A model generated the notes under the pieces. That model searched no databases. It was not told the origin of the DNA and saw only the letters and a program-made list of their open reading frames with translations. Below are positions 3,431 to 30,774 of a stretch of DNA of 45,586 nt, piece after piece. Numbering within the stretch: the first letter of the stretch is position 1; the number at the start of each line of letters is the position of its first letter. Source of the DNA: Salinivirgaceae bacterium (lineage in GTDB: Bacteria; Bacteroidota; Bacteroidia; Bacteroidales; SZUA-534); contig JAEINW010000016.1 of assembly GCA_016342715.1 (NCBI GenBank), positions 1 through 45,586 on the forward strand, in the 5' to 3' direction. Position numbers and translations under genes: made by a program.

Positions 3431-3485
3431 CATAACGACAATTGTTTGTGTATATCTTTTCAGTCTTCAACTAAAAAATAAAAAA

Positions 3486-4190: not shown

Positions 4191-4199
4191 TGCCTTTTA

Positions 4200-5132: not shown

Positions 5133-5184
5133 CAATGCTTTAAAAATAAAAAAGCTTTAATACATTATCATAAAAATATTTTAA

Positions 5185-7449: not shown

Positions 7450-7481
7450 TTAACATATCGCCATTTTAAAGTTTACGAAGC

Positions 7482-8198
7482 TTAAAAAGTATCCGTTAGA
7501 TCAGCTATTTTAAATAAGTCTAAAGGTCTGTTTACAATAATTTTGCGACCTTTTTTTACTATCAGTTTTTCATTGGCAAAATCGCTTAAAATTCTCACAA
7601 GGGTTTCGGTAGCAATACCAACAATATTGGCAAAATCTTCACGTGTAAGTTCAATTTCAATATATTCTTCTTGATTTCTGTCTTTTCTGAAGTTTTCGTT
7701 TAAAATTAGTAATGTAAGAGCCACCCTTTCGCGAACGCTTTTTTTTGTGAAAGTGACAATGAAATTTACCATTACACCAAATTCGTGGCTCAGTTTCTTA
7801 ACTAATAATTTCGATAATTCCTGATGCTTATCTAATAATCGCACCAATCGATCTTTTGATATATATCCAATTAATGAATCTGTTAAAGCAGCAGCTGAAT
7901 CATGGTATCTTTCTTCACCCATAAAAGCAGCATAACCAAGCATTTCGCCATCACTACAGAGGTAAATAATTTGTTCTTTTCCACTATTCAAGGTTTTAAA
8001 TTTCTTAATCTTGCCTTTTTTCACAAAAAAAATTCCTGAAGGGAAGGCGCCTTCGGTAAAGATTGTTTGTCCTCGTTTAAAATGTTTAACAATCATTTGA
8101 TTAGTAAAATCTTTCTGTACGTGCTCAGGTAAACTTTCAAAATCGAATTCCCGTTTCAAATGAAAACGCTCGCGTATTTTTATTAATGAATCTTCCAT
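7482..8198 (-). CDS. Crp/Fnr-family transcription regulator
   Basis: 238 residues. An N-terminal cyclic-nucleotide-binding-like barrel (about 40-150; FKRGQTIFTEGAFPSGIFFVKKGKIK) is followed by a dimer helix and a winged helix (about 165-235). The HTH reads TREDFANIVGIATETLVRILSDF, in which the recognition helix keeps the Glu and Arg (ETLVR) that read the TGA core in CRP and FNR. Only one Cys is present, so there is no FNR-type [4Fe-4S] sensor; the effector is unknown. It is divergent from the Ehr-like operon, and two FNR-type palindromes lie in between, 32 bp before its own start, so it may control both itself and the operon. Confidence 0.85.
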   Translation of the reverse strand: MEDSLIKIRERFHLKREFDFESLPEHVQKDFTNQMIVKHFKRGQTIFTEGAFPSGIFFVKKGKIKKFKTLNSGKEQIIYLCSDGEMLGYAAFMGEERYHDSAAALTDSLIGYISKDRLVRLLDKHQELSKLLVKKLSHEFGVMVNFIVTFTKKSVRERVALTLLILNENFRKDRNQEEYIEIELTREDFANIVGIATETLVRILSDFANEKLIVKKGRKIIVNRPLDLFKIADLTDTF

Positions 8199-8229
8199 AA
8201 TGTTTATTTCAACACGAAATTACAATAAA

Positions 8230-8265
8230 TTGATTACAATCAATTCTATAATTAATTGTAATCAA
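8230..8265. promoter_or_regulatory. two FNR-type operator boxes, centres 22 bp apart
   Basis: TTGATTACAATCAA (8230-8243) is a perfect TTGATnnnnATCAA palindrome, and TTAATTGTAATCAA (8252-8265) differs from it by one base in one half. Centres are 22 bp apart, two helical turns, so two dimers would bind the same face. Relative to a start near 8300 (from the -7 element at 8288) the centres fall near -42 and -64, like class II and class I CRP/FNR activator sites. The adjacent Crp/Fnr gene is the obvious candidate regulator. Confidence 0.7.
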
Positions 8266-8287
8266 TAAATTCAAGATAAAACAAGAC

Positions 8288-8295
8288 TACTTTTG
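8288..8295 (+). promoter_or_regulatory. -7 promoter element of the Ehr-like operon
   Basis: TACTTTTG fits TAnnTTTG and lies 40 bp before the first gene of the operon. No good -33 TTTG is visible, as expected for an activator-dependent promoter with a regulator box at about -42. Confidence 0.5.
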
Positions 8296-8335
8296 CCTTG
8301 GTTTTAATTTATAGGGATAGATTATTCATTCATTT

Positions 8336-10345
8336 ATGGAAGTTTCGCAAATAGTATTGGTCACCTTGTTTGTTTTTCTAGGTGGAATTATAGCGCTGTC
8401 GGTGGTTTCTGAAAAGCACCGGGCATTGATAGCTATAATTGTTGTTGTAATAAATGCGCTACTTACTTCTATACCCTCGGTATTAGCTTTATCGGGACAG
8501 GTGCAACTCGGAACGCTTTTATTACCCCATTTGCCCGGACAAGTTATTAATGTTAGAATAGATAGTCTTTCGGCATGGTTTATTCTGATTATCAATTTTA
8601 CTTCTATTAATGGGGCATTATTTGGCAGTGGATATTTAAAATCATACCAACATTTAAAAACTAACATTGGCTTTCATTGGATATTTTACATATTGTTTCA
8701 TATTTCTATGATATGGGTTTGCATGTTTGACCATGGTATCATCTTTCTTATTTCATGGGAATTGATGTCTATTTCGTCTTTAATGCTTGTAATATTTGAA
8801 TATCAAAATAAGGCTACACTAAAAGCGGGTATAAATTACATGATTCAAATGCACTTAAGTGTTGTGTTTTTAACCATGGGATTTATTTGGTTATATACCG
8901 AAACGGGTTCTTTTAACTTATCCTCTTTAGCATCGGTGGTGTCAAATAATCATTCCATCTGGATATTTGTTCTCTTTTTTATCGGCTTTGCCATAAAAGC
9001 CGGGTTCCTGCCTTTTCATACTTGGTTGCCTCATGCACATCCCTCGGCTCCTTCACATGTTTCGGGCGTCATGTCAGGTGTAATCGTTAAATTAGGCATA
9101 TTCGGCATCTTTCGAATCATTTCATATATAAACCACGATTGGTTTATTATTGGGGAAGTAATTCTGAGTCTTTCGGTAATTACGGCATTGTATGGCATTA
9201 TTAACGCAGCTGTTAAGTATGATTTTAAAAAGAGTTTAGCCTTTTGTACCATTGAAAATATTGGTATTATAGGTATTGGTATGGGTTTAGGGCTTATTGG
9301 AATTGGAACACAAAATGAAATAATTGCTATCCTTGGTTTTGGTGGAGCCTTGCTACACGTCTTGAATCATTCCTTATTCAAATCGTTATTATTCTTTAGT
9401 GCAGGGAGTGTTTATCAGCAAACACATACACGAAATATCGAAAAGCTCGGTGGGCTTATCAAAACAATGCCAGTAACTGCATTCTTTTTTCTGATGGGAG
9501 CATTGGCCATTGGTGGTTTGCCTCTATTTAATGGGTTTATTTCAGAATACCTGCTCTATTCAGGATTGTTTAAGGGCTTGCTTTCGGGAACCGGCATTTC
9601 TCATGTTATTTTAATTGTTTTATCTATCGTTGGTTTGGTAATGGTAGGTGGCATATCTATTATAAGTTTTACCAAATTATTTGGTGTTATGTTTTTAGGC
9701 AACCCTCGAACAGAATTGCAACATGAACCAAGAGAAGCATCTTTTATTATGCTTTTCCCTCAGTATATTATTGTTGCGCTTATGTTATCAATTGCTTTTT
9801 TCCCTCAATTTTATTTTGGGCATGTACTTGACATTATTCATTCAACATTTCCTAATCTCGTAGCATTAAATAATGTTCAAATTGGTGTTATAAATACGAA
9901 TCTGACTACCATTGGACATCTTAGTTTATACTTTATACTTTTATTACTTGTGGCTTTTGTGGTACGATTTATATTGCTTAGAAAAAGAAAGATTAGCAGC
10001 TGTGAAACATGGGGTTGTGGATATGTAGCACCTGTTCCAAAAGCGCAATACACTGGTCGTTCCTATGCTAGGTCTTTTGGTAATCTTTTCGGGTTTGTAG
10101 TAATTGAAAGAAAAAATTTCAAAAGAATTTCAAAAGCACTTTTGTATCCAACTTCTCGTAAGTTTTCTACTTATTACTTTGATTTGCTGGAAAAATACCT
10201 TGTTATGCCACTCATGAAAAGGATATCGTTTGTTATGAATTATTTTCAATTTATTCAGAACGGAAAAATTCAGTCGTATGTAATTTACGGTTTGTTTTTT
10301 ATCCTTATTGTATTTATTGGAACGGTATTCCATTTAATTAAATAA
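8336..10345 (+). CDS. HyfB-like antiporter-type membrane subunit, copy 1
   Basis: 669 residues with about 14-16 membrane helices; E. coli HyfB is of similar length. The proton-translocation core is intact: the helix-5 Glu (LISWELMSISS), a Lys in GFAIKAGFLPFHTWLPHAHPSAPSH, and a second Lys in MSGVIVKLGIFG, then the broken-helix region HVLNHSLFKSLLF. The C-terminal HyfB tail with CETWGCGYV is present. Such subunits pump or exchange H+ or Na+ in complex I, Mrp antiporters and group 4 hydrogenases. It is first in the operon, ten bases before its paralogue. The similarity is clear for HyfB but not enough to infer hydrogenase activity. Confidence 0.88.
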   Translation: MEVSQIVLVTLFVFLGGIIALSVVSEKHRALIAIIVVVINALLTSIPSVLALSGQVQLGTLLLPHLPGQVINVRIDSLSAWFILIINFTSINGALFGSGYLKSYQHLKTNIGFHWIFYILFHISMIWVCMFDHGIIFLISWELMSISSLMLVIFEYQNKATLKAGINYMIQMHLSVVFLTMGFIWLYTETGSFNLSSLASVVSNNHSIWIFVLFFIGFAIKAGFLPFHTWLPHAHPSAPSHVSGVMSGVIVKLGIFGIFRIISYINHDWFIIGEVILSLSVITALYGIINAAVKYDFKKSLAFCTIENIGIIGIGMGLGLIGIGTQNEIIAILGFGGALLHVLNHSLFKSLLFFSAGSVYQQTHTRNIEKLGGLIKTMPVTAFFFLMGALAIGGLPLFNGFISEYLLYSGLFKGLLSGTGISHVILIVLSIVGLVMVGGISIISFTKLFGVMFLGNPRTELQHEPREASFIMLFPQYIIVALMLSIAFFPQFYFGHVLDIIHSTFPNLVALNNVQIGVINTNLTTIGHLSLYFILLLLVAFVVRFILLRKRKISSCETWGCGYVAPVPKAQYTGRSYARSFGNLFGFVVIERKNFKRISKALLYPTSRKFSTYYFDLLEKYLVMPLMKRISFVMNYFQFIQNGKIQSYVIYGLFFILIVFIGTVFHLIK

Positions 10346-10355
10346 AGGCTAAAGA

Positions 10356-12386
10356 ATGGAAAAAATCCTGATAGAGATAATTAACCTGCTTGCCGTTTTT
10401 TCGCTAATAACTTTGCCTTTTTTAAATTCAAAGCGCTTAGGCATTGTTGCGCTTGTAACAATTACTATTCAGGTTCTTATTTCATTTGCTTTAGTGTTTT
10501 TAGTATTTACCCATGGGAACGTGGAATATTACTACCAAGGGTCTTTTATTACCGGTAATATTCCCATACGCATCGATTATTTATCAGTCTGGTTCATTCT
10601 TCTTATCAGCTTCACATTTCTAACTGGAGCTTGGTATGGGTTTCAGTATATGAAAAAGTATCAGGAACAAACTAGCAATCTTCAATTACATGCAATTAGC
10701 TATATATTAACTTTTACGGCATTAATAGATATTTGTATTGTTCAGAACGCTATCGTTTTTCTGTTAGTTTGGGAAATTATGGCTTTTGGTTCATTCATTC
10801 TTATAATATTTGAGCATTATAAAAAAGAGACCTTAAGAGCGGGTATTAACTTTTTAGTGCAATCGCATATCTCCATACTTTTTCTCACACTTTCATTTAT
10901 TTGGGTTAAAGTTAAAACAGGATCTTTCGATTTTGCGACAATTACAAGCTACTCGGCTTTGCACCCGTCAATGGGAATTGGGCTGTTTATTTTTCTATTT
11001 ATTGGCTTTGCGATAAAAGCTGGTTTTGTACCTTTTCATACCTGGTTGCCTTTAGCTCATCCTGCCGCACCTGCACATATTTCTGGTGTTATGTCAGGAG
11101 TAATTATTAAAATTGGCATTTTTGGCATTTTACGAATGCTGACTCTTATAAAAACTGATTTTATTATTATTGGCTATTTTATTCTAATTATTTCAGTAAT
11201 ATCTGGATTATATGGAGTAATACTAGCCATAATACAACATAACCTAAAAAAGTTATTGGCCTATCATAGTATCGAAAATATTGGAATAATAGGAATAGGT
11301 ATTGGTCTTGGTTGTCTTGGCTTAGGACATGAAAACCAATGGCTTGTTGTTGCTGGTTTTGGTGGTGCATTGCTTCACACTCTTAACCATTCGCTTTTTA
11401 AATCGCTGTTGTTTTATAGCGCGGGTAATGTGTATCAGTTTACACATACCATGAATATAGAATCCCTTGGTGGATTATTAAAGAAAATGCCTCATTCGGC
11501 TTATCTTTTTCTTATAGGGTCGTTAGCAATATGTGGCCTACCTCCTTTTAATGGTTTTGTTTCGGAATTTTTTATTTACAGTGGATTATTTAAAGGATTA
11601 ACATCAAATCAATTTACGCTCACTTTAACTATGCTATTTTCAATAGTAGCATTGGTACTTATTGGAGGATTGGCTTTGATATGTTTTACCAAAGCATTTG
11701 GAATTGTCTTTTTGGGTACAAACCGAACCGAAATAAAAGCTGATAAATATTTTGAAAAACCTTTGCATTTTTACCCCTTATATCTGATAGCTTTAATCAT
11801 ACTAGTGTTAGGATTACTACCATTTTTGTTTTCGTCGACACTTTTGAAAATAATTGGTTTATTTCAGATTAATTCAGGGACAATTACTATTGGTTTTATG
11901 GATCGTACATTAACTAATTTAACAGTAATTGGAGCCTATTCTTTTGCTTTTATAATTTTAACAGGAATAGTATTTTTTGTGCGATGGCTAATCATAAAGC
12001 GACGCACCAGCAAAGCCGATTTAACATGGGGATGTGGCTATGTGGGAGAAACAAAAAAAGCTCAATATACGGCTTCATCATTTATACGAAGCTACCGAAA
12101 ATTGGTAGAACCCTTGCTTTACATAAAGAAGAAGAAAATTGGCGCAAAAGGTATTTATCCTAATTCTCTAAAACATATTACTCATCCCTATGATAGAATT
12201 GAGTCATATCTAATAGACAAACCCATTTATTTATTTAGAAGAATATTAAACCGATTTGCTTTTCTTCAGAATGGGAATATTCAATCCTATATTTTATATG
12301 GATTCGTTTTTTTGGTTGCAGCTATTCTGTTCCCAATTTTTATTTCAAAAATTATGGTATTCATTCATTTATTAAATCAATTATAA
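10356..12386 (+). CDS. HyfB-like antiporter-type membrane subunit, copy 2
   Basis: 676 residues, clearly a paralogue of the preceding protein over the whole length: helix-5 Glu in LLVWEIMAFGSF, GFAIKAGFVPFHTWLPLAHPAAPAH, MSGVIIKIGIFG, HTLNHSLFKSLLFYSAGNVYQFTHT, and the tail motif LTWGCGYVG. E. coli Hyf has HyfB and a distinct HyfD at this place; here the second antiporter module is another HyfB. With HyfF the complex would have three antiporter-like modules, a number equal to complex I. It begins ten bases after copy 1 and ends one base before hyfC. Confidence 0.88.
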   Translation: MEKILIEIINLLAVFSLITLPFLNSKRLGIVALVTITIQVLISFALVFLVFTHGNVEYYYQGSFITGNIPIRIDYLSVWFILLISFTFLTGAWYGFQYMKKYQEQTSNLQLHAISYILTFTALIDICIVQNAIVFLLVWEIMAFGSFILIIFEHYKKETLRAGINFLVQSHISILFLTLSFIWVKVKTGSFDFATITSYSALHPSMGIGLFIFLFIGFAIKAGFVPFHTWLPLAHPAAPAHISGVMSGVIIKIGIFGILRMLTLIKTDFIIIGYFILIISVISGLYGVILAIIQHNLKKLLAYHSIENIGIIGIGIGLGCLGLGHENQWLVVAGFGGALLHTLNHSLFKSLLFYSAGNVYQFTHTMNIESLGGLLKKMPHSAYLFLIGSLAICGLPPFNGFVSEFFIYSGLFKGLTSNQFTLTLTMLFSIVALVLIGGLALICFTKAFGIVFLGTNRTEIKADKYFEKPLHFYPLYLIALIILVLGLLPFLFSSTLLKIIGLFQINSGTITIGFMDRTLTNLTVIGAYSFAFIILTGIVFFVRWLIIKRRTSKADLTWGCGYVGETKKAQYTASSFIRSYRKLVEPLLYIKKKKIGAKGIYPNSLKHITHPYDRIESYLIDKPIYLFRRILNRFAFLQNGNIQSYILYGFVFLVAAILFPIFISKIMVFIHLLNQL

Positions 12387-12387: not shown

Positions 12388-13293
12388 ATGCTTAGCTTTT
12401 TACTGATAATATTGGTAAGTATTTTCTTTATGGGCTTGGTGATTCGCACCAAAAGTTTGGCCTCGGGCAGAAAAGGCCCCGGTATTTTACAGCCCATGAA
12501 AGATATTGTGAGGCTTTGGAAAAAAGGATCTGTTTATAGTACCACTACCAGTATCATATTCCGAATTGCCCCAACAGTGTATTTTAGTTCTATTATTATG
12601 GCTATCTTAATGATACCGCATGGAAATCAGCCTGGTATTATTTCATTTGGTGGCGATTTTGTATTGTTTGCTTATATTCTGGCCTTGGGTAAATTCTTAA
12701 TGATAATCTCGGCGTTGGATACTGGCAGCAGTTTCGAAGGTATGGGTGCTAGTCGCGAAGCACTTTTTTCTATGCTTGTTGAACCTGCTTTTTTTATTAT
12801 CATGGGATCGCTAGCCTTATTCACCGGACATACTTCATTTTATGATATGTTTAGTGTGCTTAATTACGGATCGTACATTTCCTATCTGATTGGGGCATTG
12901 TCAACATTTGTTTTGATATTGATAGCCATGATAGAAAATAGCCGTATGCCTGTTGACGACCCTAAAACTCACTTGGAACTTACTATGATTCACGAAGTGA
13001 TGATTTTGGATAATAGTGGATTTGACCTGGGTGTAATTTTATACTGTACGCCATTAAAATTTGCCATGTATGGCGCATTAATCGCTAATTTTTTTATCGG
13101 ATCGCTTCCGCTGCAAATTTCGCTACCCTTGTTTTTTGCCATACAAATTGTTTTTGCAGTAACCGTGGGTATACTAGAATCGTTTATGGCTAGGTTCAGA
13201 ATGAGTCACAACCCACAATTTATTTTTATTCTTACTTCGGTTTCACTACTTATCTTTTTTGGAGTATTACTGGTATTAGGAAAATTTATTTAA
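12388..13293 (+). CDS. HyfC/NuoH-like membrane subunit
   Basis: 301 residues, eight hydrophobic segments. It carries the charged loops of the quinone-chamber/ion-path subunit: DTGSSFEGMGASREALFSMLVEP and ENSRMPVDDPKTHLELTMIHEVM, with the conserved Glu residues. In complex I and group 4 hydrogenases NuoH/HyfC links the peripheral arm to the antiporter subunits. It starts one base after the preceding stop, so it is translationally coupled. The start is well supported by the N-terminal MLSFLLIILVSIFFMGL helix. Confidence 0.9.
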   Translation: MLSFLLIILVSIFFMGLVIRTKSLASGRKGPGILQPMKDIVRLWKKGSVYSTTTSIIFRIAPTVYFSSIIMAILMIPHGNQPGIISFGGDFVLFAYILALGKFLMIISALDTGSSFEGMGASREALFSMLVEPAFFIIMGSLALFTGHTSFYDMFSVLNYGSYISYLIGALSTFVLILIAMIENSRMPVDDPKTHLELTMIHEVMILDNSGFDLGVILYCTPLKFAMYGALIANFFIGSLPLQISLPLFFAIQIVFAVTVGILESFMARFRMSHNPQFIFILTSVSLLIFFGVLLVLGKFI

Positions 13294-13303: not shown

Positions 13304-13933
13304 ATGACTGATATTTTATTGATAATTTTTACGATAACAGTGCTCTTTATGAGTATTGCCAATAGGATATATACCTATATCAACATTCTTATTTTTCAAG
13401 GATTTATCCTTTTTGGAGTGGCGTATTTTTCACTTTCTGAGATTAATACCTTAAACCTTATACTTATCTTGCTGGAGACCATTATTTTTAAGGCTCTTGC
13501 AGTACCTCTGTTTATAAAATACCTTATTAAGCGAAATAAAATTACACGTGAGGCAGAACCTTACCTTCCAAATTTTATTTCATTAATTATTGTAACCACT
13601 GTTATTATTGTAACCATAATTATGTCAAGTTCAATAGATGACAAAAACCTTGATAAAACCTATTTTGTGGTTGCCTTATCAAATTTATTTACGGGTTTAT
13701 ATCTGATTGTATCACGAAAAAAAATCATTACTCATGTAATAGGTTATCTGGTAATTGAAAATGGAGTATTTGTACTTGCACTTGCTGTGGGAAATGAAAT
13801 GCCAATGTTAGTAAACCTTGGAATCATGCTTGATATTTTTGCCAGTGTTCTTATTCTTGGAATATTCTTTAATAAAATTGGTGATTTTTTAAAGGATCCT
13901 GACGCCACTTTTTTACGAAATCTTAAAGATTAA
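13304..13933 (+). CDS. HyfE-like membrane subunit
   Basis: 209 residues; E. coli HyfE is similar in size. About six membrane helices, with NuoK-like features in the second half (HVIGYLVIENGVFVLAL, with the Glu in the middle of a helix, then MLVNLGIMLDIFASVLILGIFF). HyfE is a fusion of NuoK-like helices to extra N-terminal helices and forms part of the ion path. It lies ten bases after hyfC and five before the next gene. The family is well supported by order and motifs. Confidence 0.85.
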   Translation: MTDILLIIFTITVLFMSIANRIYTYINILIFQGFILFGVAYFSLSEINTLNLILILLETIIFKALAVPLFIKYLIKRNKITREAEPYLPNFISLIIVTTVIIVTIIMSSSIDDKNLDKTYFVVALSNLFTGLYLIVSRKKIITHVIGYLVIENGVFVLALAVGNEMPMLVNLGIMLDIFASVLILGIFFNKIGDFLKDPDATFLRNLKD

Positions 13934-13938: not shown

Positions 13939-15363
13939 ATGATTGCTACATTTTTAATAGGCACGCTTCTAATAAGCACTTTGCTTTTTTTTAATAAAAA
14001 TACCATACTTAATTATGTTTTAGTAATTGGCTATACCATTCTGCTTTGGATATTGGGATTTTATGAATACAATCATATCAATACCATTGAACTTGAATAC
14101 TTTAAGCCGGATGCGTTAGGTGTTTTACTTCTTTTTGTCATGTGCATTGTAAGCATCCCGGCATTTTATCACAGCTATCGTTACCTGTCAACTCACGATG
14201 AAACCCCTCGTTCTCGAGGTATTTTCTTTGCTTCCATGGTCATGCTGATTTCAGCCTGTAGCATGGCATATATTTCTAACCATATTGCAGTTACCTGGAT
14301 ATTTGTTGAAATAACCACCTTGAGCGCTTCTGCATTAATTTACCATCACCGAAATATTCGAGCACTTGAAGGTGTATGGAAATATGTGTTTATATGTGCA
14401 CTAAGCATTAGCTTTATTTATATTGGCATTTTGTTTTTGAGTTTGGCTATGAAACAAGCTGGAATCGAGGATATGTCTTTTGATTCTATTATGGAACATT
14501 ACGACCTACTCAACCTGTTTTGGCTTAAACTTTCGTTCTTATTTATTTTTACAGGCTTTACTGCAAAAATTGGCTTGGTACCTATGTACACAGCAGGAAT
14601 TGATGCCAAAGACAAAGCACCCGCACCTGCCGGGGCGTTGCTTTCAAGTGTATTAATGAATATGGGCTTTGTAGGCATTTATCGTGTGTATGCGGTTGTT
14701 TCTCATACCCAAATTCAGCATTGGGCTTCTGTTATCATAATAATATCTGCCCTTTTATCAATTTTTGTGGCCACGGTATATATGACCCGTATTAAAAATA
14801 TTAAACGGATGTTTGCTTATTCAAGCATCGAACACATGGGAATTGTAATGCTTGGTCTAGCCGTTGGTGGAATAGGAGTTTATGCCGCCATTCTTCATAT
14901 TATTCTGCACACTTTTGTAAAAACCAGTTTGTTTTTTCAGTTTAATCAAATTTACAGGGTTTATCAAAGTAAAAGTATTTACGATGTGGGGCACTATTTT
15001 AAATACAATAAGGCTGGAGCTATCGTAATTTTATTAGGCTTTATTTCGGCAACGGCCATGCCACCTTCTGGATTGTTTATTAGTGAATTTTTGATTTTTC
15101 AATCGCTTTTTGAAGCACACTATTTCTTAATTCTGATTGTTGTATTGATTTTGTTAACTATGATCATATGGGGTTTTGGCTCCAATATTTTTAAACTTCT
15201 GTTTACTCCACCCATGAATATTAATGAAAGTAGGATACCTAAAATAAATCCCATTGATTCGGTTTCGCAATATATATTATTGGCAATGGCTGTTTATTTG
15301 GCTTATAATCCTCCTGCTGAGTTTGTGAATTTAATTCAGGAAGCTGTTAAACTAATTCAATAA
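13939..15363 (+). CDS. HyfF/NuoN-like antiporter-type membrane subunit
   Basis: 474 residues with about 14 helices. It shows the helix-5 Glu (VTWIFVEITTLSASA), GFTAKIGLVPMYTAGIDAKDKAPAPAGALLSSVLMN, and IEHMGIVMLGLAVGG, then ILHTFVKTSLFF. The second Lys seen in the two HyfB copies (SGVIVK) is replaced (SSVLMN), as in other HyfF/NuoN proteins. It is the third antiporter-like subunit. A 94-base gap follows before the large-subunit gene. Confidence 0.87.
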   Translation: MIATFLIGTLLISTLLFFNKNTILNYVLVIGYTILLWILGFYEYNHINTIELEYFKPDALGVLLLFVMCIVSIPAFYHSYRYLSTHDETPRSRGIFFASMVMLISACSMAYISNHIAVTWIFVEITTLSASALIYHHRNIRALEGVWKYVFICALSISFIYIGILFLSLAMKQAGIEDMSFDSIMEHYDLLNLFWLKLSFLFIFTGFTAKIGLVPMYTAGIDAKDKAPAPAGALLSSVLMNMGFVGIYRVYAVVSHTQIQHWASVIIIISALLSIFVATVYMTRIKNIKRMFAYSSIEHMGIVMLGLAVGGIGVYAAILHIILHTFVKTSLFFQFNQIYRVYQSKSIYDVGHYFKYNKAGAIVILLGFISATAMPPSGLFISEFLIFQSLFEAHYFLILIVVLILLTMIIWGFGSNIFKLLFTPPMNINESRIPKINPIDSVSQYILLAMAVYLAYNPPAEFVNLIQEAVKLIQ

Positions 15364-15457: not shown

Positions 15458-16960
15458 ATGAAATATTTAACCATACATAACAACCAAACTGTTAATATAA
15501 AGGATATTCCCGTATTTACATATCGTGAATTTCTTGAAGAAAATATAGTTTTGTTGAAAGGCCAAGCAAAGAAACATTGCGTAAATTATTTTGGTGTTAA
15601 CGATAATTTGCAGATAAAGCTGTATTGTTGTATTGCCGATGATGATACTCATGAAATATTTATTAATTCTTCCATTATTAATATTGCAGATAGTATACCT
15701 TCTTTATCAGCTCAAAACCATAATTTCGAGAAATTTGAACGCGAAATTCACGAAAACTTTGGTATTAAATATACCGATCATCCTTGGCTAAAACCAATGC
15801 GCTATGCAAATAACAGAGCAAATAAGCAACTAGGTATTGCCGATTATCCATTTTACAAAGCCGATAGCGAGGAACTGCACGAAGTTGGGGTTGGCCCCAT
15901 TCATGCTGGAATAATTGAACCGGGACATTTTCGATTTATTTGCAATGGCGAGCAGATATTGCATCTCGAAATACAATTGGGTTACCAACATCGAGGAATT
16001 GAGCAATTATTTCTGCAAAAAACCAAACTACTAGAACGAGCCACCTTAGCTGAAAATATTGCAGGTGACACAACTGTTGGACATACCTCAGCTTTTTCTA
16101 ATTTATGGGAAAGTTTATGCGATGTTAGTTCTGATAAATCATTGCAATTTTCACGAACCTTAGCGCTTGAATTAGAACGAATAGCAATCCATACAGGCGA
16201 TTTAGCAGCCATTTGTGCCGATATAGGTTATCAACTTGGCAATTCGGTTTTTGGAAGACTACGAACTCCAATTGTAAACTTTTTTCAAGAATGGGGAGGC
16301 AATCGTTTGGCAAAAGGATTAATACGCCCCGGCAAAATAAATTACCCATTTACGAAGGAATTGGCACAAAGGCTGAAGGAAATATTCATTGCTTATGAAC
16401 GTGATTTTAACGAAATGGCAGATAAATTCTTTTCATTACCCAGTGTTTTGTCACGATTAGAAAAAACGGGAATTGTATCCTATGAGGAAGCTCTCGAAAT
16501 TGGTACAGTAGGCATGGTTGCAAGAACCTGTGGGTTAAATCGGGATATTCGTTCTTCGCATCCTTCAAATTTGTATGGCGACTTATTTAACCATGAGCCA
16601 ATAATTAAACATCAGGGCGATGTATATTCCCGAGTTAAATTAAGAGAAGAAGAAATACAGCAATCCATTTTATACTGTAAAAAATTATTGGAAAATATTC
16701 CAGAATTCAACAAAGCAGAAAATACCGAAATTAAGCCGGGTAATGATAAATTTACCTTATCGTTAATTGAAGGCTGGCGGGGAGAAATATGCCATTGTGC
16801 CATTACTGATGAACAAGGGAACCTAAAAGCATATAAAATAAAAGATCCCTCACACCACAACTGGATGGCGTTGGCGCAATCTGTACGAAACAATGAAATT
16901 TCAGATTTTCCGGTATGTAATAAAAGTTTCAACCTTTCATATTCCGGTCACGATTTATAG
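15458..16960 (+). CDS. NuoC-NuoD/HyfG-like large subunit without [NiFe] ligands
   Basis: 500 residues: NuoC-like domain (about 30-115) fused to a NuoD/hydrogenase large-subunit domain (about 130-500), as in HyfG/HycE. The fold is well kept: VGPIHAGIIEPGHFRFICNGE and LGYQHRGIEQLF. The first metal motif RxCGxCxxxH reads AENIAGDTTVGHT (residues 198-210), so both Cys are replaced (Ala202, Thr205) while His209 stays. The second, DPCxxC, reads DPSHHN (463-468), again without Cys. It therefore cannot hold a [NiFe] centre and belongs with the Ehr (energy-converting hydrogenase-related) proteins described between group 4 hydrogenases and complex I. The reaction is unknown. Confidence 0.88.
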   Translation: MKYLTIHNNQTVNIKDIPVFTYREFLEENIVLLKGQAKKHCVNYFGVNDNLQIKLYCCIADDDTHEIFINSSIINIADSIPSLSAQNHNFEKFEREIHENFGIKYTDHPWLKPMRYANNRANKQLGIADYPFYKADSEELHEVGVGPIHAGIIEPGHFRFICNGEQILHLEIQLGYQHRGIEQLFLQKTKLLERATLAENIAGDTTVGHTSAFSNLWESLCDVSSDKSLQFSRTLALELERIAIHTGDLAAICADIGYQLGNSVFGRLRTPIVNFFQEWGGNRLAKGLIRPGKINYPFTKELAQRLKEIFIAYERDFNEMADKFFSLPSVLSRLEKTGIVSYEEALEIGTVGMVARTCGLNRDIRSSHPSNLYGDLFNHEPIIKHQGDVYSRVKLREEEIQQSILYCKKLLENIPEFNKAENTEIKPGNDKFTLSLIEGWRGEICHCAITDEQGNLKAYKIKDPSHHNWMALAQSVRNNEISDFPVCNKSFNLSYSGHDL

Positions 16961-16968: not shown

Positions 16969-17337
16969 ATGAAAGGAGTTTACACCATATTATTGTTAAT
17001 TATATCCAATGCCTTTATGACATTTGCATGGTATGGCCATTTGAAATTTAAAGAGTTTGTCTGGTTTAATAAACTTGGGTTAATTGCTATAATTCTTATT
17101 AGTTGGGGTATTGCTTTATTCGAGTACCTTTTTCAGATTCCAGCTAACAGAATTGGTTATTCAGCGAATGGAGGACCATTTTCTTTGCTACAACTGAAAG
17201 TAATACAAGAAATAATTACCCTTGTTGTATTTACTGGATTTTCTACACTTTTTTTTAAAAACGAGTCGTTTAGGATGAATCATATCATCGGCTTTGTGTT
17301 CTTAATACTGGCGGTATATTTTATTTTCAAAAAGTAA
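16969..17337 (+). CDS. DMT-family (DUF486) small membrane protein
   Basis: 122 residues, four membrane helices. The DUF486 pattern is recognisable: AWYGHLKF, SWGIALFEYLFQIPANRIGY, then GPFSLLQLKVIQEIITLVVF and a C-terminal IGFVFLILAVYFIF. The family is related to small drug/metabolite transporters, with unknown substrate. It follows the large-subunit gene by eight bases and precedes the malic enzyme by 63, so it is inside the operon; it may be a passenger or may move a metabolite linked to it. Confidence 0.8.
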   Translation: MKGVYTILLLIISNAFMTFAWYGHLKFKEFVWFNKLGLIAIILISWGIALFEYLFQIPANRIGYSANGGPFSLLQLKVIQEIITLVVFTGFSTLFFKNESFRMNHIIGFVFLILAVYFIFKK

Positions 17338-17400: not shown

Positions 17401-18663
17401 ATGGATACAAAATTAAACAAAGAAGCTTTATGTTATCATAGCAGTACCCGCCCTGGTAAAATTGAAGTTAAACCAATGAAAGCTTGTGACTCATCACATG
17501 ATTTATCACTGGCCTACACTCCGGGTGTTGCTGAACCTTGTTTGAAAATCAAAGAAAACCCCGATGATGTTTATAAATACACCATTAAAGGAAATCTTGT
17601 AGCAGTTATCACTAACGGAACAGCTGTTTTGGGTCTTGGCAACTTAGGCGCATTGGCATCGAAACCAGTTATGGAAGGAAAAGTTATGCTGCTTAAAAAA
17701 TATGCCGATATTGATGGATTTGATATTGAACTTAATACTACTGATGTTGATGTATTTGTAAGAACGGTGATTACTATGAGTCCTACATTTGGTGCTATTA
17801 ACCTCGAAGATATTAAAGCTCCGGAATGTTTTGAAATAGAGAAACGGCTCATTGATGCGCTCGACATACCTGTCATGCACGATGACCAACACGGAACTGC
17901 TATCGTATCAGGAGCAGGACTAATAAATGCCTGTGAAATTGCCGAAAAAAAATTGCAGGACATTAAGCTTGTGATTAGCGGTGCAGGAGCGGCTGCTATG
18001 GCTTGTGCCGAGATGTATTTGTCGTTGGGAGTTAAAAAAGAAAATCTTTTGATGCTTGATAGCAAAGGGGTGATTTCAAAAAAACGCTTAGATCTCAATA
18101 AATATAAACAAGCATTCGCCGTAAATACTAACCTGGAAACCTTAGAGGAAGCTCTTGCAGGTGCAGATGCTTTTGTAGGTCTGTCTAAAGCAAATATAAT
18201 GACTGTTGAAATGGCTCAATCAATGGCAGAAAATCCCATAGTATTTGCCCTTGCAAATCCTAATCCTGAAATTGCATATAGTGATGCTATTAAAGCAAAA
18301 TATGGAATTATTTATGCTTCGGGTCGTAGCGATATTCCTAATCAAATAAATAAGGTATTAGGATTTCCTTATATTTTTCGAGCGGCGCTTGATGTACGCG
18401 CATCAAAAATTAACACTGAAATGAAAAAGGCTGCTGTTTACGCCCTGGCTTCATTGGCTAAAGAATCTTTTTTAAGTATTGATGGTAGTGTTTCACTTTC
18501 TTTTGGTAGAGATTATTTTATTCCACTACCTTCTGATTTAAGATTATTTAGAACTATTGTTCCTGCTGTGGCCGAAGCTGCCATAAAAAGTGGAGTTGCA
18601 GGCAAAGCTATTCCTGATATGAATAGCTACATAAATGAATTAGATAAACGCATTATAAAATAA
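17401..18663 (+). CDS. NAD(P)-dependent malic enzyme (short MaeB type)
   Basis: 420 residues, the catalytic part of the MaeB class without the C-terminal phosphotransacetylase domain. Visible motifs: SLAYTPGVAEPC, ITNGTAVLGLGNLGALASKPVMEGKV, a metal/substrate region DDQHGTAIVSGAGL, and the nucleotide fold VISGAGAAAMA followed by MLDSKGV. It converts malate to pyruvate and CO2 with reduction of NAD or NADP; the sequence as seen does not settle the cofactor. It sits between the large and small subunits of the Ehr-like complex, six bases before the latter, which is not a usual place for this enzyme and suggests a metabolic link. Confidence 0.92.
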   Translation: MDTKLNKEALCYHSSTRPGKIEVKPMKACDSSHDLSLAYTPGVAEPCLKIKENPDDVYKYTIKGNLVAVITNGTAVLGLGNLGALASKPVMEGKVMLLKKYADIDGFDIELNTTDVDVFVRTVITMSPTFGAINLEDIKAPECFEIEKRLIDALDIPVMHDDQHGTAIVSGAGLINACEIAEKKLQDIKLVISGAGAAAMACAEMYLSLGVKKENLLMLDSKGVISKKRLDLNKYKQAFAVNTNLETLEEALAGADAFVGLSKANIMTVEMAQSMAENPIVFALANPNPEIAYSDAIKAKYGIIYASGRSDIPNQINKVLGFPYIFRAALDVRASKINTEMKKAAVYALASLAKESFLSIDGSVSLSFGRDYFIPLPSDLRLFRTIVPAVAEAAIKSGVAGKAIPDMNSYINELDKRIIK

Positions 18664-18669: not shown

Positions 18670-19431
18670 ATGTTTGATAATCTGAAAATAGTTTGGCATC
18701 AGGGGAAACAATTTATTCCCGATGTTGTTGCGGAGGTAGTTCCTGGAATATTTAGAGGACGGCCTATAATATCGCTTGCAAAGGTTAATGAAGATAAATT
18801 GGTTGAATTGTGTCCAACAGGTGCTATTTCAAAAGCGCCTTGTAGTATAAATTTGGGGAAATGTACTTTTTGTGGAGAATGTGCCATACAATTCCCCGAA
18901 AAAATAGCCTTTACCAAAGACAATAAACTTTCAACGAACCAACTTGATAGGCTAATTATTAAGGAGGGTGAAGATTCTCCAATTGTGCTCAACCCTGCAA
19001 AAATACGAGCAGAGATTAGAAAAACATTCGGAAATTCGTTAAAACTACGCAGTGTTTCTGCCGGAGGCGATAATAGTTGCGAATGGGAATTGACTGCATC
19101 AAACAATGTTCAATTTGATATGAGCCGTTTTGGAATTGATTTTGTAGCCTCTCCGCGCCATGCCGATGGCATAGTTATAACCGGCCCCATAACGGAAAAC
19201 ATGGCCGAACCCTTGCAACGTTGTTATAATGCTATTCCCGAACCAAAAATTATCATTCTTGCTGGAACCGATGCCATTAGTGGAGGAATTTTTGCAGATA
19301 GCCCGGCCATTGACCGAAGCTTTTTATCAAAATACCCTGTTGATTTATATATAGCCGGAAACCCTGTGCATCCACTAACTTTTATAAATGGGGTGTTAGA
19401 ATTAACTAGATCGAAATACATGAAAAAATAA
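18670..19431 (+). CDS. fused ferredoxin-NuoB/HyfI-like subunit with altered cluster ligands
   Basis: 253 residues. Residues 40-85 are a ferredoxin-like domain with CPTGAI (Cys48) and CTFCGEC (Cys65, 68, 71); the fourth Cys of the second motif is Phe75 and the first motif keeps only its last Cys. That leaves exactly the four ligands of one [4Fe-4S] cluster. Residues 120-253 are NuoB/HyfI-like (RFGIDFVASPRHADGIVITGP, then SGGIF). The proximal-cluster ligands are mostly gone: CxxCE reads DNSCE (Asp134, Cys137), GxC reads GTD (Asp201), and PGCPP reads AGNPV (Asn231). The HyfH and HyfI functions are thus fused, and the N2-type cluster is probably absent or unusual. Confidence 0.85.
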   Translation: MFDNLKIVWHQGKQFIPDVVAEVVPGIFRGRPIISLAKVNEDKLVELCPTGAISKAPCSINLGKCTFCGECAIQFPEKIAFTKDNKLSTNQLDRLIIKEGEDSPIVLNPAKIRAEIRKTFGNSLKLRSVSAGGDNSCEWELTASNNVQFDMSRFGIDFVASPRHADGIVITGPITENMAEPLQRCYNAIPEPKIIILAGTDAISGGIFADSPAIDRSFLSKYPVDLYIAGNPVHPLTFINGVLELTRSKYMKK

Positions 19432-25525: not shown

Positions 25526-26653
25526 TCAATCCATAATAAACTCGGTAAAGTTTTCTTGACTAATCACCTTAGTTTCAGTTCCAGGATAGCCTTCGATAAA
25601 TGATTTTGGGAATTTTACTTTTCTTCTTGGATTCCATTTAAACTCAAAGGCAAAAAGCTTTCCCTCTCGTTCTTCAATAAAATCAACTTCTTGTTGAGCA
25701 TGGTTACGCCAAAAATAATAGTTAGAATAATTTCCGTTATAATGATTGTATTTCATACGCTCGCTAATTAGAAAATTCTCCCATAAACCACCAATATCTT
25801 GACGAAGACTCAACATATTGAAATTATTTAAAATGGCATTTCGTACCCCATTGTCGTAAAAATACACTTTACGAGTTCGTTTTAGCTCGTTGCGCAAATT
25901 ACGATTTAAAGTGGGTAAACGAAATATTACAAATGCTTGTTCAAGCAAGCGAATATATTTTTCTACAGTAGCCTTATCTAACCCTATTAATTGAGCTAAT
26001 TCGTTATACGATACTTGCTGCCCAACTTGTAAAGCCAACGCTTGCAAAAGCTTTTCAATTTTATTCGATTTTTTAATATTATCCAATATCAGAATATCTT
26101 TATAAAGATAACTATCCGAAATTAATTTAAGAATCTCTACTTGATTACCTGCAGAAGTAACTACTTCAGGGTAATAACCATAAATCAAACGCTGTTCCAA
26201 ATTCTGAAACTCTTCCCAAAAACTTGTATGATTAACCATTTCTGCAAACGACATAGGAAATAACAGATATTCCCATTTGCGTCCGGTTAGTGGTTCATTT
26301 ATTATATTCGCTAATTCAAATGCCGACGAACCCGTAGCAACAACCTGCACACCTTTCATTTCGTCAACTATCATTTTAAGTGTAACACCAATATTTTCAA
26401 TGCGTTGGGCTTCATCAATAAATATCACTTTATTGTTTCCTACTATCTGTTTGAGCTGGCTAAAAGTAGGGTTATTCAGCATTTGTCGTACAGCAGGGTC
26501 GTCACCATTTAAAAACATTTGTTTTTGCTTAACTAAATTGCTTAGTTTTTTAATAATAGTTGTTTTTCCAGCTTGTCTTGATCCAAGAATAATAATAACT
26601 TTTCCAGAAAACATTTGTTTGTCAATTCTAGCACTTAATCTCCTAGGAATCAC
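25526..26653 (-). CDS. AAA ATPase with DUF4143 domain
   Basis: 375 residues. The N-terminal ATPase (AAA_14) has Walker A GSRQAGKTT (about 24-32), Walker B VIFIDEAQR, and sensor VATGSSAFELA. A linker with a helix-turn-helix-like part (SYNELAQLIGLDKATVEKYIRLLEQAFVI) leads to the DUF4143 region, with the conserved KVYFYDNGVRNAIL and FWRNHAQQEVDFIEER. The last motif resembles a PD-(D/E)xK-like nuclease core (E-x-D-F-I-E...FEFKWN), as noted for this family. Function unknown. The start is GTG at 26653: the only in-frame codon after the upstream stop; the first ATG is 13 residues in and would cut the ATPase start. Confidence 0.88.
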   Translation of the reverse strand: MIPRRLSARIDKQMFSGKVIIILGSRQAGKTTIIKKLSNLVKQKQMFLNGDDPAVRQMLNNPTFSQLKQIVGNNKVIFIDEAQRIENIGVTLKMIVDEMKGVQVVATGSSAFELANIINEPLTGRKWEYLLFPMSFAEMVNHTSFWEEFQNLEQRLIYGYYPEVVTSAGNQVEILKLISDSYLYKDILILDNIKKSNKIEKLLQALALQVGQQVSYNELAQLIGLDKATVEKYIRLLEQAFVIFRLPTLNRNLRNELKRTRKVYFYDNGVRNAILNNFNMLSLRQDIGGLWENFLISERMKYNHYNGNYSNYYFWRNHAQQEVDFIEEREGKLFAFEFKWNPRRKVKFPKSFIEGYPGTETKVISQENFTEFIMD

Positions 26654-26852
26654 AACATTAAAATTTTGCTAAATTATGAAAAAAGGAAATGCAATGCCAA
26701 TATATATACATATATTACGATTTAAATAACATATATAGTATAATTAGAGTGATTATAATATAAATAATTATATTAATAATGGGAACGTAAGCACATAATT
26801 AATATAAAAAATGGGAATATAATTATGTATAATAGAAATTAGATGATTTAAT

Positions 26853-26888
26853 AAAACCTAAAGCCAAAGGATCTGACTCTAGGTTTTT
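26853..26888 (-). terminator. terminator-like hairpin after the valS 3' remnant
   Basis: AAAACCTA (26853-26860) pairs with TAGGTTTT (26880-26887), eight bases perfect around a 19-base loop, lying just downstream of the minus-strand valS remnant. The rest of 26654-26852 is AT-rich and holds a weak inverted repeat (26793-26800 with 26821-26828). Confidence 0.45.
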
Positions 26889-26896
26889 GAAATGTG

Positions 26897-26984
26897 CTAT
26901 TTATTTAAATTAGCCATTTGTTCTTCAATAGCTTTGATTTTTGCTTCAGCATCGGCCTGTTTTTTTGCGTTCTATTGCAAATGC
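26897..26984 (-). pseudogene. displaced 3' end of a valS gene
   Basis: On the minus strand the frame reads [20 protein letters not shown] and a stop (26897-26899); the intact ValS ends [20 protein letters not shown]. Bases 26912-26972 match 30849-30908 with one substitution and one inserted T, which breaks the frame (KKQ to KKT). Upstream of that, ttt-gca-ata-gaa-cgc here versus gtg-gcc-att-gaa-cgc there shows similar protein with changed codons, so this copy came from a diverged valS. It is a fragment only. Confidence 0.8.
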
Positions 26985-27020
26985 ATTTCTGAAAATCACA
27001 CATGTTAAACATTAGCTTTG

Positions 27021-27063
27021 ACAAAATATATTTTGCTAAAAACTTTAACAAAATATATTTTGT
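27021..27063. promoter_or_regulatory. double palindromic operator of the ATPase cassette
   Basis: ACAAAATATATTTTGT (27048-27063) is a perfect 16-bp palindrome, and ACAAAATATATTTTGC (27021-27036) is the same sequence with one end base changed. Centres are 27 bp apart. The downstream copy ends four bases before the -7 element at 27067, where a bound protein would block RNA polymerase; the upstream copy would allow cooperative or looped binding. No separate regulator gene is adjacent, so a distant one or the winged-helix part of the first ATPase would bind here. Confidence 0.65.
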
Positions 27064-27066
27064 CAT

Positions 27067-27074
27067 TATCTTTG
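27067..27074 (+). promoter_or_regulatory. -7 promoter element of the ATPase cassette
   Basis: TATCTTTG fits TAnnTTTG, 22 bp before the ATG at 27097, immediately behind the second operator copy. Confidence 0.6.
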
Positions 27075-27096
27075 TTGCGAATTAACAAAAAATATC

Positions 27097-28257
27097 ATGA
27101 ATACAATTATTGGACAGGCAGCAACTGGAGATAAGTTTTATATAAGAAAAAAGTTAATTGAGAGGTTGTGGAGAAAAATAGAGGCGGAAAACAATATCCT
27201 TCTTTCTGCTCCCAGAAGAATCGGCAAAACATCCATAATGCTATACTGCCTGAATAATCCCAAAGAAAACTATGACATCATCTATTTAATAACTGAATCG
27301 GTGAATAATCAGAATGAATTTTATCGAAAACTAGTGAAAGATTTAGATGAAAAATTAAAAACTTCGAAAAAAGTAAAAAATTACATTCGAAATATTGTCA
27401 ATTCTAATAAAATAAAATCCATTGGACCTGATGGTGTTACCTTCGACAACAAAGAAGTTAACTATTATGAAGATTTTGTAAATATTTCAGAACAACTCGA
27501 ATTAGATGGTTGCAAAATGATCATTATGATAGATGAATTTGCCCAAACAGTTGAAAATATAATGCAGGATGAAGGAGACCAGTCGGCAATTAAGTTTCTG
27601 GAATCAGTTCGGGAACTCCGAATTAATCCAAAAATAAGTGATAAAGTTCAATTTATTTTTGCGGGTTCAATTGGTTTAGAAAACATTGCAAGTCAGCTTA
27701 ATTCCATAAGTACAATAAATGATTTATATCCGTTTCAAGTTACTCCTTTTTCTATTGAAGAAGCAGAGGAGTACATCTATACAATACCTTTAAAAAATGA
27801 AAAATACGATTTTCAAAAAGAGAATATTAAGTATCTGTTAGATCGATTGGCGTGGAACATTCCTTATTTTATTAATATAATATTGGATGAAGTTGATGAC
27901 ATTTGTTTTGATCAAGGAACAAAAATAATAACAAAGGAAATTATTGATGTAGCTTTTAAAAATTCATTAAAAAATCGCACTTATTTTGAGCATTGGCATA
28001 GAAGATTGAGAAAAGCATATAAACAGAATTATTATAATTTTTCAAAGGACATTTTGAATTGTGCAGCAAAAAACGGATCCATTTCACGTGCTGAAATTTC
28101 CAATATTGCTATAGGATTAGAGATTTCTGAAACCTATAAAGATGTATTAAACTCGTTGATTTATGATGGTTATTTAAATAATCAAAACAATCAAAATATT
28201 TATGTTTTTAATTCTCCTCTATTAAGAGAATGGTGGTTTAACGAAGTAACAAATTAA
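27097..28257 (+). CDS. AAA+ ATPase with C-terminal winged-helix domain
   Basis: 386 residues. Residues 10-45 fit an archaeal-ATPase-like/STAND-type P-loop module: YIRKKLIERLW then Walker A SAPRRIGKTS (37-46). Walker B is MIIMIDEF (near 140), followed by FIFAGSIGLEN (sensor) and FQVTPFSIEEAEEYI. From about 300 it has a winged-helix-like end (ILNCAAKNGSISRAEISNI, then VLNSLIYDGYLNN and YVFNSPLLREWW). The build is that of ATPases that hold an HTH and a ligand-induced switch. It is the first gene of a two-gene operon: the next gene starts three bases after its stop. Function unknown; a defence or toxin-type signal system is one possibility. Confidence 0.75.
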   Translation: MNTIIGQAATGDKFYIRKKLIERLWRKIEAENNILLSAPRRIGKTSIMLYCLNNPKENYDIIYLITESVNNQNEFYRKLVKDLDEKLKTSKKVKNYIRNIVNSNKIKSIGPDGVTFDNKEVNYYEDFVNISEQLELDGCKMIIMIDEFAQTVENIMQDEGDQSAIKFLESVRELRINPKISDKVQFIFAGSIGLENIASQLNSISTINDLYPFQVTPFSIEEAEEYIYTIPLKNEKYDFQKENIKYLLDRLAWNIPYFINIILDEVDDICFDQGTKIITKEIIDVAFKNSLKNRTYFEHWHRRLRKAYKQNYYNFSKDILNCAAKNGSISRAEISNIAIGLEISETYKDVLNSLIYDGYLNNQNNQNIYVFNSPLLREWWFNEVTN

Positions 28258-28260
28258 ACA

Positions 28261-30774
28261 ATGAATACTTTCCAAATATTTAATCCAGGAAACCAGTCAG
28301 AGAAAGAGCTTGTGCAAAATTTTTGTATTCGCAAAAATGAATTCAACAAGATCAGGAAAATTATTATCGATGACACTATGGAAACAGCACCTCAGCATTT
28401 TATTATACAGGGTATACGTGGAAGTGGAAAAACAACCTTGTTGTTACGAACATACTATGAATTGAAAAATGATAAAAAATTAAGTAAGTGGTTAATACCT
28501 ATTATTTTTAATGAAGAGCAATATAGTGTTAACAAGTTATTTAAATTCTGGGAACAAATCGCCATTGAGTTAGAACAGGAATCAAAAGGTTATTGTGGGT
28601 TGGTAGATAAAATGCAGGAGTCTGATAAAGTTGAAACTTATGAAGAACACTGTTATGATACATTGTTTAAAGTCTTAGAAGTCAATAAAAACAAAATATG
28701 TGTTTTTATTGACAATATTGGGGATATTTTACAAAAGCTAACAAAAAAAGATCAGCAAAGGTTAAGGGAGGTTTTGATAACTAATAATCAAATTAGAATT
28801 ATTGGTGCTTCATCGGTTGTGTTGGAATCTACATACAAGTATGATGAACCTTTTTATGAATATTTTAAAATAATTGCTTTAAATGAGCTAAAAAGTCAGG
28901 AAGCAAGAGACTTTCTTTTAGAATTAGATAAGATAAATAACTCGAATAAAATTCAAAAAATAATTGAAAAATCTCCAGGAAGAATCGAAGCGCTAAGAAT
29001 TATCACAGGAGGTGTACCTCGAACCATTGTTCTATTGTATGAGATATTTATAAATGACAAAAATGGAGATTCTTTTAAAGATTTGGAAGTGCTATTGGAC
29101 AGAGTTACTCCGCTCTATAAACACCGAATGGATGATTTGCCAACCCAACAACAGGAAATAGTTGATTGTATTGCATTAAATTGGGATGCTATACCAGTAA
29201 AAGAAATTGCCCGAAAAACCCGAATGGAAAGCAAAGCGGTTTCGGCACAACTTCGTTTGTTAGAAAAAAACTCTGTGGTAATAATGAAAACAACCACAAC
29301 AAAAAACCACTTGTACCAGATAAAAGAACGATTTTTTAATATTTGGTATATAATGCGGAATGGTAGAAAATCTGATAAAAATAAGGTTAAATGGTTGACT
29401 AATTTTTTAGAAGTTTGGTGTGACAAGGACTCACTTAATGAAATGATAGACCAGCACATTGAAAAATTGAAAACTGGAGATGTATATGATATATATGCAT
29501 ATAGTTTATCTGAAGCTTTTGCAAATATTATTCCTTCATCGGATAAGCAACACCTCTTATTAAAGAAGACCAAGTCATATTTGAAAACTGAAAAAAGTGA
29601 ATTGTCTGGCAAACTTTCAAAGTCAGATATTCAACTCGTCTATGAAGATATAATTACTTTAATAGAAGGGAAACAATTTAATAAAGCAATTCAAAAACTT
29701 AAGCAAAAAGAATCGAAAACAGGATATATTGAATATGCACTTGCCTATATTTATTGGTATTGTCTAAAGGATAAGGAGAATGCAGAAAAACAATATATAA
29801 TAGCAATAGATAAAGGATATGATAGGGCATTATACTATCTAGCATTACTTTATAGAAACGAATTTAAAGAATATATCAAAGCAGAGAAGTACTATTTAGA
29901 GGCTCTTGAAAGAGGCAATACGGAAGTCAACTTTAATTTAGCAGATCTTTATGAAAAAGAATTAAAAGATTTTGTTAAAGCTGAGAAATTTTATCTGAAG
30001 GCTATTGAAAAAGGTAATGTGAACGCTATGAATAATTTAGCTGTGATTTATTTTAATGAATTCCAAGATTACATTCAGGCTGAGAAATATTTTCTTATGG
30101 CAAGTAAGTTTGAGAACAAAATAGCTATAAATAATTTGGCCCAGTTATATGGGAATATATTTAAGAATTATGAAAAAGCTGAAAAATATTATAAAATTGC
30201 GGCTGAAAAGGGAGATGATGCTGCAATGAATAATCTTGGAACTCTTTACTTCAATGGAATAAAAAATTATTCTGAAGCTGAAAAATATTTTCGTTTAGCC
30301 TCTGAGAAAGGTAACTTAAATGCTATATGCAACCTTGGAAAGTTGTTTTTCAAATTCAGAAAAGATAAAATTGAAGCATTACAAGTTACTGAAAAAGCAT
30401 TTAATCTTAATTCTAATTATGAAGATTTAATTCTCACTTATTCTTTAATCCTCATATGGCACAATAAAATTGAAAAAGCGATAGAAATTTCAAAACCAGT
30501 TTTCAATAGTAAAATTTATATTGGCAAAAATTCAATTAATGTTGAAACTCTTATAAAAATATTAATCGCTAAAAAACAATACAACTATGTATATAAAATA
30601 TTTAAAGAAAATAAACACCAAATTAAAGACCGTTTAAAACCCATTTATTATGCGCTTATGCATTTTATGCAGGATAAATACCCTGATGAAATTAAAAAAA
30701 TGGGCGAAGAATTAAAAGAAACGGTTGAAAGTATTGTTCAAGTTATACTAGAAATGAGAGAAAAATATAAGTAA
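28261..30774 (+). CDS. STAND-like ATPase with Sel1/TPR repeats
   Basis: 837 residues. Residues 18-260: P-loop ATPase, Walker A GIRGSGKTTL (51-60), Walker B KICVFIDNIGD (about 145), sensor RIIGASSVVLE. Residues 290-365: winged helix (QQEIVDCIALNWDAIPVKEIARKTRM, with LRLLEKNSVVIM and RFFNIWYIMRNG). From about 490 to 720 are tandem Sel1-like repeats of about 36 residues with A-x-K-Y-Y-x-x-A-x-x-x-G-x-x-x-A-x-x-N-L-A-x-L-Y. The TPR array likely senses a protein ligand and the ATPase acts as the switch, as in STAND proteins. No effector domain is seen in either gene. A tail fragment of a relative survives at 22806-22880. Possible role: phage defence; this is inference. Confidence 0.72.
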   Translation: MNTFQIFNPGNQSEKELVQNFCIRKNEFNKIRKIIIDDTMETAPQHFIIQGIRGSGKTTLLLRTYYELKNDKKLSKWLIPIIFNEEQYSVNKLFKFWEQIAIELEQESKGYCGLVDKMQESDKVETYEEHCYDTLFKVLEVNKNKICVFIDNIGDILQKLTKKDQQRLREVLITNNQIRIIGASSVVLESTYKYDEPFYEYFKIIALNELKSQEARDFLLELDKINNSNKIQKIIEKSPGRIEALRIITGGVPRTIVLLYEIFINDKNGDSFKDLEVLLDRVTPLYKHRMDDLPTQQQEIVDCIALNWDAIPVKEIARKTRMESKAVSAQLRLLEKNSVVIMKTTTTKNHLYQIKERFFNIWYIMRNGRKSDKNKVKWLTNFLEVWCDKDSLNEMIDQHIEKLKTGDVYDIYAYSLSEAFANIIPSSDKQHLLLKKTKSYLKTEKSELSGKLSKSDIQLVYEDIITLIEGKQFNKAIQKLKQKESKTGYIEYALAYIYWYCLKDKENAEKQYIIAIDKGYDRALYYLALLYRNEFKEYIKAEKYYLEALERGNTEVNFNLADLYEKELKDFVKAEKFYLKAIEKGNVNAMNNLAVIYFNEFQDYIQAEKYFLMASKFENKIAINNLAQLYGNIFKNYEKAEKYYKIAAEKGDDAAMNNLGTLYFNGIKNYSEAEKYFRLASEKGNLNAICNLGKLFFKFRKDKIEALQVTEKAFNLNSNYEDLILTYSLILIWHNKIEKAIEISKPVFNSKIYIGKNSINVETLIKILIAKKQYNYVYKIFKENKHQIKDRLKPIYYALMHFMQDKYPDEIKKMGEELKETVESIVQVILEMREKYK

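Follow-up and report, generated by a model that had tools for sequence, protein, structure and literature searches.

The NuoB-like small subunit (S) encoded in a 45,586-nucleotide Salinivirgaceae contig (the whole stretch analyzed, hereafter the window) carries Asp, Cys, Asp, and Asn at the four cysteine positions that hold the N2/proximal iron-sulfur cluster in its homologues, and this D-x-D-N state is a conserved family trait, shared throughout a large clade. Judged from the sequences, the best explanation is that S no longer builds the cluster and that the complex is of the Ehr type. On balance, we favor a complex that would move ions without N2 redox, being electron-silent at N2 and having its membrane arm driven otherwise. 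The central question about complex I is how electron transfer near N2 brings about ion movement far out in the membrane arm, and a homologue with a conserved ion path from which both N2 and the catalytic site are gone would separate the two halves of the machine.

The proximal-cluster site of the small subunit

S (positions 18670 to 19431, plus strand; 253 residues) is the product of the last gene of the operon and consists of a ferredoxin-like N-terminal domain, which has a single cluster ligand set, and a NuoB/HycG-like domain joined to it (Pfam Fer4 and Oxidored_q6). Alignment to the solved structures of MbhJ (6cfw_J; E value, 6e-23) and HycG (7z0s_G; E value, 2e-21) bore out the NuoB-like identity given in the earlier note and placed Asp134 (GAT, 19069 to 19071), Cys137 (TGC, 19078 to 19080), Asp201 (GAT, 19270 to 19272), and Asn231 (AAC, 19360 to 19362), all on the plus strand, on proximal-cluster Cys ligands 1 to 4, respectively. 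The AlphaFold2 model of S (mean pLDDT of 87) matched 6cfw_J with a Z score of 13.3 and an rmsd of 2.1 Å over 133 residues, the NuoB fold being kept in the model. The window's genome was searched for other NuoB homologues, and none was found.

The earlier note counted three of the four ligands as lost. Asp134, Asp201, and Asn231 do replace Cys, but the count was an understatement, because Cys137 is dispensable; since it is not a conserved ligand, all four N2 ligands are functionally gone. Among 102 distinct relatives, mostly from Bacteroidota, Cys137 is present in 80, and A, T, S, G, V, N, D, or H stands there in the other 22. These counts bear on whether a normal or modified Fe-S cluster could still form on Asp, Cys, Asp, and Asn. 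Asp-ligated Fe-S clusters are known, and 80 sequences have Cys137; however, in the remaining 22 all four sites lack Cys, and no compensating Cys column was found in them (Cys185 is common, but it also occurs in sequences that keep Cys137). A cluster on the remaining ligands was rejected for these 22 sequences, and for the family we regard it as very improbable.

Conservation of the altered site among relatives

Asp134, Asp201, and Asn231 are invariant in an alignment of 21 sequences (A1), and among the 102 distinct relatives they are found in 99, 100, and 100 sequences, respectively. The earlier note proposed checking whether D-x2-C, D, and N are conserved in close relatives; the two Asp residues and the Asn are nearly invariant, while the Cys is variable, so that the four-site pattern reads DCDN in 79 of the 102 and DADN, DTDN, DSDN, and the like in the rest. 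The codons are split between GAC and GAT at the Asp sites and between AAT and AAC at the Asn site, and because the codons drift synonymously and the residues stay, it is selection that keeps the three residues. Pairwise dN/dS values of about 0.04 to 0.08 for the S gene (NG86, with dS near saturation) indicate strong purifying selection.

The S protein of the window was matched in 70 of 99 related genomes; about 35 of these matches are close relatives, the weaker ones being NuoB-type proteins of other kinds. When named genomes were scanned, many more turned up in Bacteroidota, a few in Spirochaetota, and one in a Brocadiaceae metagenome-assembled genome. Isolates are in the same state, among them Chryseolinea serpens DSM 24574 and Arcticibacter eurypsychrophilus MJ9-5, both of which carry D-C-D-N. 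The codons GAT, TGC, GAT, and AAC, when re-read from the DNA, agreed with those reported before, and a simple misreading is excluded by about 100 relatives in the same state. With these distinct sequences, isolates included, and the strong purifying selection, local decay of the gene or a wrong reading of the DNA was rejected and has a negligible probability.

Exactly two carboxylates (Asp or Glu) are found among the four former ligand sites in 102 of 102 sequences. In the three sequences that lost the acid at 134 or 201 (ADDN, GDDN, and DDHS), an acid appears at 137, as against none of the 99 others, although these compensations amount to two events (L069 and L081 are sisters), and sequences related by descent do not test the rule independently. 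Asn231 can be replaced by His or Ser. In the Spirochaetota loci L261 to L266 (clade 2), the same four sites are N-x-E-D, which once more makes two acids and one amide, and L268 and L269 have Glu137 and Asp200 plus Asn or Asp at 231. In these two further lineages, too, the Cys set is missing and acids or amides stand at the N2 sites.

We also compared the members that lost the ligands (lost group) with the Cys-type members; in these comparisons, which covered S columns, ion-path residues, neighboring genes, and SulP counts, the lost group contains one four-Cys row (L267). In S, the groups differ most cleanly at the ligand columns, the remainder being little changed, and the loss of the N2 ligands was not accompanied by any gain of His or Cys.

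The earlier suggestion of a carboxylate-held metal should be weighed against this pattern. Two carboxylates and an amide might hold a mono- or dinuclear metal (Fe, Zn, Mn, or Mg) or a cation, either structurally or as a new cofactor. Asp, Asp, and Asn are good oxygen ligands, they are nearly invariant at positions that formerly faced a metal cluster, and His164, also in S, is invariant; that conserved carboxylates can equally bind metal counts against our best explanation. However, no His or Cys accompanied the loss, the acid shifts among positions 134, 137, and 201, and Asn231 gives way to His or Ser, all of which fits a requirement for charge better than a fixed coordination geometry. A metal site is possible, but we consider it unlikely.

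Clusters of the ferredoxin-like domain

Cys48, Cys65, Cys68, and Cys71 (18811 to 18882, plus strand) form the full ligand set of one [4Fe-4S] cluster, which we take to be of the N6b type from the order of the motif compared with NuoI. This set is invariant in A1 and conserved in 110 of 110 sequences. The ligands of the distal cluster (N6a type) are mostly lost, and nearly all lost members keep only the C48/C65/C68/C71 set. Three lost members near the Cys-type pair in the tree (L085, L088, and L103) keep both ferredoxin-domain clusters without having N2 ligands, which suggests that the loss of N2 probably preceded that of the distal cluster.

That an Fe-S ligand set should stay invariant is odd for a purely redox-silent machine, and this counts against the best explanation. 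The surviving cluster may have a structural role or serve as a redox sensor. Alternatively, electrons could enter at the N6b-type cluster and exit to another acceptor, in the large subunit (L) or a soluble partner, so that the complex would work as a redox enzyme by a new route. The 110 of 110 conservation speaks for this, as does clade 2, which lacks the N2 cysteines and keeps two full ferredoxin-domain sets. On the other side, no alternative cofactor-binding domain and no gained metal ligand was found in S or L, and a comparison of lost loci (L267 among them) and Cys-type loci revealed no recurrent dehydrogenase or redox partner gene beside the operons. Moreover, when N2 is missing from Yarrowia complex I, the enzyme still assembles natively but no longer reduces any quinone (PMC8042128), so that onward electron transfer does not occur there; as this case shows, a NuoB lacking N2 can stay structurally sound while passing no electrons. 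We hold a new electron route to be doubtful, slightly more so than the metal site.

Ancestry of the loss

Four-Cys members of the S family are common in Gastranaerophilales, Spirochaetota, Planctomycetota, and some Bacteroidota, and since these sister lineages have them so commonly, the Cys state is taken as ancestral. The earlier note held that relatives with four normal Cys would point to local decay; such relatives do exist, but in sister lineages, and within a large clade D-x-D-N is the fixed state. The D-x-D-N group lies inside a clade with an SH-aLRT value of 98, in which only L105 (Kapabacterium) and L113 are of the Cys type. A single loss for the D-x-D-N clade fits the data (AU P values of 0.594 for S and 0.547 for L), and the free careful tree gives two changes. 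For clade 2, the AU test did not reject a shared loss (P values of 0.188 on S and 0.572 on L), and a loss shared between clade 3 and clade 1 is borderline (AU P value of 0.064). On a Brocadiaceae contig (L078, positions 153 to 9759), a Cys-type pair of large and small subunits is located directly upstream of a D-x-D-N operon.

Large subunit and membrane arm

L is a NuoC/NuoD (HycE)-like protein without NiFe cysteines (15458 to 16960, plus strand). In alignment with HycE, A202-G203-D204-T205 (16061 to 16072) corresponds to C-G-I-C, the first NiFe Cys pair, and S494-Y495-S496-G497 (16937 to 16948) corresponds to C-Y-S-C, the second pair; the alignment extends to S496, and G497, read from the sequence, is presumably opposite the last Cys of this motif. 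All four NiFe Cys positions are therefore altered (A202, T205, S494, and G497), confirming that the metal site of the large subunit is also lost and that the usual electron path is cut twice, once at N2 and once at the NiFe site. The positions aligned to His38 and Tyr87, which we take to be the quinone-binding residues in Thermus, are I153 and G203. Because Cys-type relatives have the same L motifs at the NiFe positions, the loss of the catalytic site came first and that of N2 later.

The membrane arm is encoded upstream of L on the plus strand and comprises two copies of a HyfB-like antiporter subunit with conserved ion-path residues (8336 to 10345 and 10356 to 12386), a NuoH/HyfC-like subunit with conserved acidic residues (12388 to 13293), a HyfE-like subunit (13304 to 13933), and a HyfF-like antiporter subunit (13939 to 15363). 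The lost group (L267 included) and the Cys-type group alike conserve the charged ion-path residues of their antiporter and NuoH-like subunits. The tandem HyfB-like duplication (8336 to 12386) recurs in many Bacteroidales operons of the D-x-D-N clade.

Comparison with known systems

An L without the four NiFe Cys and antiporter- and NuoH-like genes in the same cluster are both found in the window, and by sequence the complex can be assigned to the Ehr type. It shares with Ehr complexes the group 4-type cluster, the HyfB-, HyfE-, and HyfF-like and NuoH-like membrane subunits, and the missing NiFe Cys of L, whereas its S also lacks the N2/proximal ligands (a cluster expected by homology, though perhaps not part of the published definition). 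Ehr complexes have been described as lacking NiFe motifs and having an unknown function (PMC6349859, PMC10284858, PMC7304191, PMC10432482). In the literature searched, within the portions consulted, we found no report of N2 loss in Ehr complexes; the founding descriptions (Coppi; Marreiros 2013) lie outside it, so the priority of this finding is uncertain.

The best sequence and structure matches are group 4 [NiFe] hydrogenases of the FHL/Hyf and Mbh types (7z0s_G/E and 6cfw_J/L), but the window complex has neither a NiFe site nor a proximal cluster, and its relatives mostly have one ferredoxin-domain cluster. Respiratory complex I has homologous S, L, and membrane subunits (NuoB, NuoCD, NuoH, and NuoLMN) with the charged ion-path residues conserved; unlike it, the window complex lacks the N2 ligands and the quinone His/Tyr, and there is no NADH module in the window. 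Such operons should be labeled neither hydrogenases nor complex I. Mrp antiporters and DAB complexes use NuoL-like antiporter-type subunits without N2 redox input, but the window complex keeps NuoB- and NuoD-like subunits, homologues of which, to our knowledge, are not found in Mrp antiporters or DAB inorganic-carbon complexes. The carbonic-anhydrase-like DabA-type family is absent among the operon proteins.

Proposed mode of action

An oxidized [4Fe-4S](Cys)4 center has a net charge of −2. Since the altered site has two acids, the simplest reading is that the two carboxylates and the amide would serve as an electrostatic stand-in for the oxidized cluster, with an inferred net charge of −2. 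The acidic pocket may keep the S-L interface and the proton network working, with no electron reaching L by the N2 route. Ion gradients or a partner would then power the membrane arm in exchanging or pumping H+/Na+ or similar ions; in some lineages, a SulP anion transporter is probably a co-worker. DAB2, which is coupled to the proton motive force, is a precedent for redox-free NuoL-type subunits (PMC13144422). The earlier idea of a redox-insensitive ion channel agrees with the intact ion-translocation residues and the cut N2/NiFe route, but "channel" is too specific.

More tentatively, and with less confidence than in ion movement without N2, we suggest that these operons could represent a phylum-wide complex I-like class that passed from redox-driven to electron-free operation by way of a charge-matched pocket of two carboxylates, possibly energizing the uptake of anions (bicarbonate type) together with SulP. 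If true, this would be a natural "redox-dead" complex I in which ion movement goes on. A homologue that keeps its ion path but lacks N2 and the catalytic site would also reveal what the N2 pocket has to provide for the machine to stay assembled and useful, be it a constant charge of −2, a site for a proton, or a bound metal.

Neighboring genes

A SulP-family transporter gene directly follows S in 5 of 67 lost loci (the group with L267), 2 of 24 Cys-type loci, and 5 of 6 clade 2 loci, often overlapping or only a few bases away (L081, L082, L094, L101, L103, L105, L271, and L261 to L265). That it is missing beside most Bacteroidales operons, including that of the window, counts against the best explanation; the window's genome has one SulP gene elsewhere as well as two NQR2/RnfD genes. 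In 16 Cys-type operons (L272 to L290), a gene for an HTH and PTS EIIA protein immediately precedes the first antiporter gene, and this gene was not seen upstream of D-x-D-N operons. Such neighbors are hints, not proof, of a role in ion homeostasis or anion uptake.

Between L and S, the window contains genes for a DMT-family (DUF486) membrane protein (16969 to 17337, plus strand), found at that place in the window only, and a lineage-specific malic-enzyme-like protein (17401 to 18663, plus strand). The latter is probably not part of the complex; as a general partner it was rejected, the insertion being common only to the window and its nearest relative (L002). A Crp-family regulator gene (7482 to 8198, minus strand) is divergent from the operon and is a candidate regulator. 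Farther downstream, positions 25526 to 30774 encode an AAA/DUF4143 ATPase and a Sel1/TPR-repeat NTPase that weakly matches STAND; a gene for an SNF2 helicase is nearby, and this neighborhood is possibly defense-like or mobile.
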